Assembly (NCBI GenBank): GCA_009885955.1
Contig: VFJS01000032.1
Span: 1-64,000 of the forward strand
Reading direction: 5' to 3'
Length of the DNA stretch: 64,000 bases
Source: Spirochaetia bacterium
GTDB taxonomy: Bacteria > Spirochaetota > UBA4802 > UBA5550
The notes beneath the pieces were generated by a model. That model was not told the origin of the DNA, searched no databases, and worked only from the letters and a program-made list of their open reading frames with translations. Positions 21,888 to 23,956 of the stretch are shown one piece after another. A program made the position numbers and the translations under genes. Position 1 is the first letter of the stretch. The number at the start of each line of letters is the position of its first letter.

Positions 21888-23147
21888 TTATCTCAGGTAG
21901 CTTTTAAGAACGTCAGGGATGTCCATGGTGCCGTCGCCCTTCTGATAGTTTTCAATCACGGCTGCAAGGGTCCTTCCGGCTGCGAGTCCCGATCCGTTAA
22001 GAGTATGGAGGTACTTCGGCTTCGCGCCCTTCGATTCCCTGTATCTGATCATGGCCCTCCTGGCCTGGTAGTCTATAAAATTGGAGCACGATGAGACCTC
22101 AAGGTACCTGTCCAGCCCGGGCATCCAAACCTCTATGTCGTATGTTTTGGATGATGAAGCCGATGTGTCGCCGCTTGAGAGGAGTACCACGCGGTAATGG
22201 AGATCAAGGCGCTTCAAGACCTCCTCGGCATTTGCCGTGAGCTTCTCAAGCTCTTCCGATGAAGTTGCGGGATCTACAAACTTAACCAGTTCCACCTTCT
22301 GGAACTGGTGGACTCTTACCAGGCCCCTGGTGTCCCTGCCGGCAGCCCCGGCCTCCCTCCTGAAGCAGGAAGACTGCATGGTCACATATACCGGAAGGTC
22401 CTCCATTTCAAGGATTTCATCCCTGTAGAGGTTGGTCAGCGTCACCTCGGCCGTGGGGATAAGGGAAAGGCCATCCTTCTCGAGCCTGTAATATTCGTCC
22501 TTGAACTTGGGATACTGGCCCGTGGCCGTCATGCTTTCGTCATTCACTATCAGGGGGCCGAAAATTTCAGTGTATCCATGCTCACCGGTGTGAAGGTCGA
22601 GCATAAAGTTCAGAAGGGCCCTTTCAAGCCTGGCAGCCAGCCCCCTGTAGACATAGAACCTGGCTGCGGCAATTTTAGTCCCCCTCTCGAAGTCCAGGAT
22701 ATTCATTTCAGTCCCAATATCATAATGGGGCCTGGGTGTAAAGGAAAACTTCCTCTTCTCGCCCCAGGTCCTTACAACGGTATTGTCCTTCTCATCCTTG
22801 CCTTCCGGCACCGATTCATCGAGTATGTTGGGGATGGTCAGATGGAGCTCGTTGTATTTTTCGTTGATACTGTTGATTTCCTCATCCATCTTTTTAAGTT
22901 CATCGGAAATCCCCTGGACCTCTTTCATGATTTCCTCTGTATCGCCCCCCTTCGACTTCCGTATGCCGATCTCCTTCGAAATCCTGTTCCTCTTCTCCCT
23001 CAGTTCGTCTGATCTGCCGGAAAGCTCCTTTCTCATGTCCGAGATCTCTTTCAAATAATCTATATCAACCACCCCGGTCATGTTTCGCTTTTCGATGAGC
23101 CTCCTCAGGCCCTCGAGGTCTTCCCTGATCAGTTTCGGATCAATCAT
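21888..23147 (-). CDS. serS: Seryl-tRNA synthetase
   Basis: A 419-residue class II synthetase that charges tRNA-Ser (and also tRNA-Sec, relevant to the selenoprotein gene beside it). The N-terminal coiled-coil arm (residues about 30-105) is present. Motif 2 is FRREAGAAGRDTRGLVRVHQF, and motif 3 is TLNGSGLAAGRTLAAVIENY. The length is standard. It precedes the RtcA-like gene by 9 bp. No T-box or other leader structure was recognised upstream. Confidence 0.97.
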   Translation of the reverse strand: MIDPKLIREDLEGLRRLIEKRNMTGVVDIDYLKEISDMRKELSGRSDELREKRNRISKEIGIRKSKGGDTEEIMKEVQGISDELKKMDEEINSINEKYNELHLTIPNILDESVPEGKDEKDNTVVRTWGEKRKFSFTPRPHYDIGTEMNILDFERGTKIAAARFYVYRGLAARLERALLNFMLDLHTGEHGYTEIFGPLIVNDESMTATGQYPKFKDEYYRLEKDGLSLIPTAEVTLTNLYRDEILEMEDLPVYVTMQSSCFRREAGAAGRDTRGLVRVHQFQKVELVKFVDPATSSEELEKLTANAEEVLKRLDLHYRVVLLSSGDTSASSSKTYDIEVWMPGLDRYLEVSSCSNFIDYQARRAMIRYRESKGAKPKYLHTLNGSGLAAGRTLAAVIENYQKGDGTMDIPDVLKSYLR

Positions 23148-23273: not shown

Positions 23274-23302
23274 TTGACGCCGGCAACACCCCTATGTATA
23301 TT
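23274..23302 (+). promoter_or_regulatory. Strong sigma-70-type promoter for the selenoprotein gene
   Basis: TTGACG at 23274-23279 and TATATT at 23297-23302 have the ideal 17-bp spacing. It points to the glutaredoxin-like gene and predicts a leader of about 95 nt. It lies in the space between divergent serS and that gene. Confidence 0.7.
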
Positions 23303-23405
23303 CAAAGGAGGCTGCGGGTTGATATTTATACAAAGCAGTTCTCGAAAACAAAAAAACAGGGATACACGAAAATCATTCATATCAGACATGGAAAAGGAGG
23401 AAAAT

Positions 23406-23621
23406 ATGCCCGATAAAATTCTAATTTACGGAAAAGCCGGATGACCTTATACCGATTCGGCCAGGTCGGCCTACGGAAACAGGGCTATTTATTATGATGT
23501 AAAAGAGGACAAATCAAAGATCGACGAGATGCTCAAATATTCAGGCGGGAAAAAACAGGTGCCCGTCATAGTTGAAGGAGATAAAGTCACCGTGGGATAC
23601 GGCGGTTCCTGAGGGGTTTAA
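23406..23621 (+). CDS. Glutaredoxin-like selenoprotein with two UGA/Sec codons
   Basis: A gene of 71 codons, missed by standard calling because UGA appears in frame at codon 13 (23442-23444) and codon 69 (23610-23612); the stop is TAA at 23619-23621. Read through, it gives MPDKILIYGKAG-U-PYTDSAR, then a thioredoxin-fold body (IYYDVKEDKSKIDEMLKYSG, KQVPVIVEGDKVTVGYGGS) and ends U-G-V. The first UGA replaces the first Cys of the CxxC site (U-x-x-T), as in the Uxx-star glutaredoxin-like family. The body keeps the cis-Pro (QVPVI) and the final GYGG. AAGGAGG lies 5 nt upstream of the ATG. Each UGA is followed at the correct distance by a hairpin with GGU in its loop. The sel genes are not in this window. 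The redox partner is unknown. Confidence 0.9.
23452..23476 (+). promoter_or_regulatory. SECIS element 1 (after UGA codon 13)
   Basis: CCG (23452-54) and GGCC (23459-62) pair with GGCC (23468-71) and CGG (23474-76), closing a loop AGGUC. The GGU begins 19 nt after the UGA; in E. coli fdhF the equivalent spacing is 18 nt with loop AGGUCU. This is where SelB would bind to decode codon 13. The stem is interrupted by an internal loop, as is common in bacterial SECIS. Confidence 0.8.
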
Positions 23622-23646
23622 TGTGCTGCGGTCTGCAGCATGGCAT
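23621..23646 (+). promoter_or_regulatory. SECIS element 2 (after UGA codon 69)
   Basis: TGCTGC (23624-29) pairs perfectly with GCAGCA (23635-40), closing loop GGUCU; a lower AUG/CAU helix (23621-23/23644-46) follows a 3-nt bulge. The GGU begins 17 nt after the second UGA. The hairpin lies mostly beyond the TAA stop, so it has no coding role and is best explained as a SECIS for the penultimate UGA. Confidence 0.78.
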
Positions 23647-23686: not shown

Positions 23687-23956
23687 TTACCTGCCGTATT
23701 TTTTAACATTATCCTCGATTATCACCTTCCCCTTTTCAACCTTATCCGTGATATGCTTCACGGTCTCCTCCCTGGTCTTCGGGATTTTCTGCCCCGTATA
23801 ATAGAGGTAGCCGAGATATGCGCTAATAACAATGAGTGAAAGTATTATCATTTTTATCATCTTTTTCACAAGGGATATAATGATGATTACCCCGAGTATA
23901 ACTGCAGCGGCCAGATAAAGATTATTTGATGTAATTGTCTTTAGTATCTCTTCCAT
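23687..23956 (-). CDS. Small membrane protein, function unknown
   Basis: An 89-residue protein with two hydrophobic helices (residues about 13-30, YLAAAVILGVIIIISLV, and about 34-53, MIILSLIVISAYLGYLYY) separated by a short KKMIK turn, then a charged helical tail (REETVKHITDKVEKGKVI). No family was recognised. It is convergent with the selenoprotein gene and lies 26 bp downstream of the transglutaminase-like gene on the same strand, so the two are probably co-transcribed. Confidence 0.6.
   Translation of the reverse strand: MEEILKTITSNNLYLAAAVILGVIIIISLVKKMIKMIILSLIVISAYLGYLYYTGQKIPKTREETVKHITDKVEKGKVIIEDNVKKYGR

Follow-up and report, generated by a model that had tools for sequence, protein, structure and literature searches.

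A putative double selenoprotein with a glutaredoxin fold, a member of UXX-star selenoprotein family 1, in a Spirochaetia bacterium

The stretch of DNA analyzed here (the window, 64,000 nt from a Spirochaetia bacterium) contains a short gene on the forward strand (positions 23406–23621) which, judged from its sequence and conservation, very probably encodes a small glutaredoxin-fold selenoprotein with both of its in-frame UGA codons read as selenocysteine (Sec). We assign this reading a probability of roughly 90%. An earlier note on this DNA had proposed a frame of 71 codons that is open only if UGA at codons 13 and 69 is decoded, and this frame is present, beginning with ATG at position 23406 and ending with the true stop codon TAA at 23619–23621. 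According to the homologue alignment, the first UGA (UGA1, 23442–23444) corresponds to Sec13 at the position of the glutaredoxin active-site Cys (UxxT), and the second (UGA2, 23610–23612) to Sec69, two residues ahead of the stop (U-G-V-stop); the 3′-end of the gene reads TGA GGG GTT TAA, and its relatives end alike. The Shine-Dalgarno sequence named in the earlier note, AGGAGG, is found 5 nt upstream of the ATG (23395–23400). The promoter described there as ideal was overstated: the promoter-like site TTGACG-17-TATATT (23274–23302) agrees with the consensus at 10 of 12 positions, which is mildly better than chance; a shuffled region should by chance contain about 1.9 sites of this kind. The gene has no close companion and is flanked by a seryl-tRNA-synthetase-like open reading frame on the opposite strand (21888–23147, named from reading its sequence) and a small convergent open reading frame (23687–23956), and clustering of neighboring genes across the family revealed no shared partner and hence no conserved gene neighborhood.

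The read-through protein matches the NCBIfam model NF041114 (UXX-star selenoprotein family 1) with 109.1 bits at a cut-off of 72 and over positions 1–70 of 70, so that both UGA sites, and the U-G-V end with them, fall within the curated model. The broader model NF041212 (Uxx-star family) was passed as well (85.1 bits, cut-off 66), and the Pfam glutaredoxin model PF00462 was passed narrowly (28.1 bits, gathering threshold 22.9); the scores for NF041211 (family 2; 51.4 bits, cut-off 100) and NF047338 (family 3; 49.3 bits, cut-off 97) remained below threshold. The thioredoxin-type fold supposed in the earlier note is borne out by the predicted structure (mean pLDDT 88), which matches glutaredoxins and NrdH. 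The model stops after the last strand and lacks the last glutaredoxin helix, and the active-site motif UPYT carries Thr in place of the usual second Cys of CxxC, so that neither the CxxC/S active site nor the complete fold of a glutaredoxin is found. What is found are the two marks of family 1, namely a Sec at the C-terminus that is followed by two residues and the stop, and an active-site column of U or C in a UxxT context. In the table of a 2026 review, NF041114 is listed as UxxT with 2 Sec (PMC13188914), and in view of the parallel names GUXX-star and UXPK-star, “UXX-star” most likely denotes U-x-x-stop, i.e., a C-terminal Sec. For both reasons the gene is an ordinary member of an already known family of double selenoproteins. 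That the family is known had been stated beforehand, and the placement of UGA1 at the active site as well as the kinship to Uxx-star proteins hold; only the family name had been tied to the wrong codon, since it fits the C-terminal UGA. Two further expectations were not borne out. Annotation pipelines that use NF041114 need not skip the gene, as the curated NCBI model covers it completely, and a pair of Sec codons is nothing unusual within the family, since both are present in 98 of 122 sampled members and the review table already gives two.

These 122 homologues are distinct sequences, remaining after removal of identical copies, which were read codon by codon. In the phylum of the host, 10 of 393 genomes contain a protein above the NF041114 cut-off, all with two in-frame TGA codons, and the corresponding numbers are 100 of 395 genomes in the phylum of a deltaproteobacterial metagenome-assembled genome and 3 of 399 in that of a Pelotomaculum one. 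The alignment runs through both sites, with a U/C column at the first and U at the second. Cys in place of UGA had been expected at both, and this proved right for site 1 only, where TGA occurs in 98 and a Cys codon (TGC/TGT) in 24 of the 122 sequences; site 2 is TGA in 122 of 122, and the combination of Sec at site 1 with Cys at site 2 was found in none of them. When 84,980 species genomes were scanned with Cys codons placed at either of the two sites (Sec was back-translated as Cys, and hence only relatives with Cys at site 1 were recovered), site 2 was again Cys in none of the relatives. A degenerate pattern for a Cys form of this site gave two matches in 395 genomes, neither within a homologue; with TGA instead, the pattern recovers 79 of the 122 known genes, so it sees most of them.

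Several observations concern individual loci. A single genome (G762; L081:1076-1276 and 1501-1701) contains two tandem, differing family copies at a distance of 425 nt, each with two UGA codons. A genome of the same family as the host carries a degraded copy (L055, about 1790–2046; G097:C83:25450-25545), in which UGA1 and the central part of the protein have been lost through a deletion and a frame change, but the tail with UGA2 can still be read. In a genome of the same order, a glutaredoxin-like gene (L056; G166:C63:10392-10577) contains one TGA at the active site (TTPT-U-PYC) and no tail Sec, and is probably a different Sec-glutaredoxin. Finally, a subclade (L153, L155, L162–L167, and L174) has a longer loop ahead of the tail Sec (..LFGGTUP..), with several of its members near arsenic genes.

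As for the function of the protein, the most likely mode of action, which we favor with some reservation, is that of a two-selenol redox center formed by Sec13 and Sec69. Sec13, at the position of the nucleophilic Cys of glutaredoxins, would attack the substrate. Sec69 is located on a short C-terminal tail, found where glutaredoxins have their last helix, and would resolve the resulting intermediate or serve as a co-ligand. Replacement by Cys is seen for Sec13 but never for Sec69, and of the two it is therefore probably the C-terminal Sec that is essential. Nor is it a mere stand-in for the missing second Cys of the active site, because certain relatives in which site 1 is Cys have a full CxxC and still keep the tail Sec, which speaks against the simplest version of this mechanism. 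A less likely, though by no means negligible, alternative is that the double selenoprotein binds or carries arsenic, mercury, or another soft metal instead of taking part in thiol-disulfide exchange. At several loci of the longer-loop subclade, ArsR-like and ACR3-like genes (assigned by reading their sequences) lie close by, which points in this direction, as does the suggestion of a possible metal-ligand role for the Sec of this family (PMC13188914). However, no ArsR-like or ACR3-like neighbors are present at the window gene, and the fold together with the exchange of Sec and Cys at the active site is typical of redox proteins.

A far less probable reading holds that only UGA13 is decoded and that UGA69 is a real stop, leaving the following two codons untranslated. 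A chain of only 68 residues would still amount to a glutaredoxin-like domain, no search recovered a Cys form of site 2, and UGA recoding is known to be incomplete, a figure of 30–40% being given for E. coli (PMC4513850). Nevertheless, the codons behind UGA2 behave as coding ones. They are mostly GGN GTN/ATN (Gly-Val or Gly-Ile), giving a tail that is mostly U-x-[VI]-stop, and the Val codons of the U-G-V/I genes are spread nearly evenly over the third base (GTT 20, GTA 17, GTG 16, GTC 15), with the real stop located two codons beyond UGA2 in 110 of 122 homologues. As Val/Ile is kept with a free third base and the stop stays at a fixed place, the sequences argue for constraint at the protein level and thus for translation past UGA2. 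Moreover, site 2 is followed by strong hairpins of varied sequence at the distance expected of a SECIS element, homologues with Cys at site 1 keep both UGA and hairpin at site 2, and the count of two Sec in the review (PMC13188914) likewise speaks against a stop at codon 69.

Decoding of both UGA codons as Sec would depend on the RNA structures that follow them. The earlier note had placed hairpins with GGU loops 19 and 17 nt behind the two UGA codons, and both were found by RNA folding. Hairpin 1 (GGCC-AGGUC-GGCC, 23459–23471, loop AGGUC) lies within the coding region, with GGU 19 nt past UGA1. Hairpin 2 (UGUGCUGC-GGUCU-GCAGCAUG, 23622–23642, loop GGUCU) has GGU 17 nt past UGA2 and lies wholly behind the TAA in the 3′ untranslated region; it had been described as mainly downstream of the stop. 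Taken alone, the folding energies of the window hairpins are unremarkable (z from −0.2 to −2.0), and Rfam, searched with a relaxed threshold, returned nothing beyond chance matches at this locus. Evidence beyond chance was drawn from the homologues, in the form of covariation and natural controls rather than z-scores of single hairpins, and across them hairpins follow both UGA codons, which is consistent with two SECIS-like elements. Site 1 was read in a fixed register with a 4 bp stem and a 5-nt loop that begins 19 nt behind UGA. The loop-adjacent pair is formed in 100% of the genes with UGA (C-G 65, T-A 23, T-G 10), whereas only 42% of the genes with Cys are paired at this position; registers that were slid along the sequence lose pairing over the stem as a whole. 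The RNA structure at site 1 is thus kept where Sec is needed and decays where the codon specifies Cys.

At site 2, the best-stem score amounts to 17.8, whereas shuffled sequences reach 9.7 and the ends of 527 ordinary genes 9.5 (for the comparison with gene ends, p is about 4e-51, a value inflated by the relatedness of the homologues), and stems of at least 6 bp are present in 83% of cases, compared to 18% at ordinary gene ends. Because the stem finder seeks pairing, its per-position pair counts do not represent independent evidence; the comparison with gene ends does. The stems vary in sequence and yet stay paired, with 60 different 5-nt arms in 115 stems, and the loops start with (N)G[G/T] in 112 of 122 homologues, about 19 nt past UGA. 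A stable stem in the 3′ untranslated region might also be a transcription terminator, a reading that we consider slightly less probable still than a stop at codon 69. A T run follows the hairpin in only 6 of 122 homologues, the spacing from UGA is tight (median 19–20 nt) with loops that start G-G or G-U, and no terminator was called at hairpin 2 in the window.

The window gene ends in TAA, unlike 67 of the 122 homologues, whose reading frames close at a further UGA that mostly lies 6 nt behind the Sec UGA, under the same hairpin. Whichever stop is used, the distance of the hairpin from the first UGA stays the same (medians of 19, 20, and 19.5 nt), and it is therefore probably this distance which decides which UGA is recoded. 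Taken together with the lack of a Cys form at site 2, we tentatively propose, with less confidence than for the redox center itself, that the tail Sec is chemically irreplaceable and the active-site Sec optional, with the chemistry centered on the tail selenol, and that the decoding machinery tells apart two UGA codons two codons apart, the second of which ends the chain in many genes. As far as the sequences indicate, these two features, an invariant tail Sec and a frequent neighboring stop UGA, are less expected than the double Sec.

The idea that two nonsense mutations mark a glutaredoxin gene in decay, or that UGA means Trp in the code used here, has nothing in its favor at the window apart from the deleted copy in one related genome and was rejected on conservation, as ten genomes of the same phylum keep both TGA codons in a conserved protein, site 1 alternates with TGC/TGT and never with TGG, and long open reading frames in the sampled loci use TGA as an ordinary stop.

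Decoding of both UGA codons as Sec is further supported by the genes for Sec synthesis and insertion. All four genes whose presence the earlier note had proposed to check were found in the host genome, namely selA (492 bits), selB (295 bits), selC (70.9 bits; called as tRNA-Sec by ARAGORN), and selD (365 bits), with selA adjoining selB. The selD gene (G000:C112:58989-59912; L048, L060) contains one in-frame TGA, and the host SelD is probably a selenoprotein itself. Among the sampled carrier genomes, 54 of 56 contain selB; as it is also found in seven genomes of the same family that do not carry the gene, its presence is permissive and not specific to carriers. Sequence, conservation, and the Sec genes of the host thus support a scheme in which SelB and Sec-tRNA would decode UGA13 by means of hairpin 1 within the coding region, and UGA69 by means of hairpin 2 directly behind the real stop.

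With two UGA codons and two hairpins in 240 nt, one of the hairpins lying wholly beyond the stop, the gene offers a compact test case for dual Sec insertion. Its family shows the decay of a putative SECIS element upon a change from Sec to Cys, provides a natural series of Sec-UGA and stop-UGA two codons apart that can be used to study how tightly SelB gauges distance, and, by its invariant tail Sec, points to the residue to be mutated first when asking for the function of the family.

Compared to known systems, the window protein shares UxxT, two Sec, and the C-terminal U-x-x-stop with the proteins described by NF041114, also termed distant Grx-like protein 1, and differs from them in nothing of kind. 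The same fold is common to NF041212, NF041211, and NF047338. Selenoprotein glutaredoxins with a UxxC motif, such as Clostridium oremlandii Grx, carry Sec as the active-site nucleophile; the window protein has the glutaredoxin fold and the active-site Sec in common with this enzyme, but differs in having UxxT instead of UxxC, in lacking the last helix, and in its second Sec at the C-terminus. In mammalian thioredoxin reductase, which ends in Gly-Cys-Sec-Gly, a redox-active Sec is located near a flexible end. The position of a Sec close to the C-terminus is alike in both cases, but the proteins are unrelated, so that the likeness is an analogy in the way of working only.
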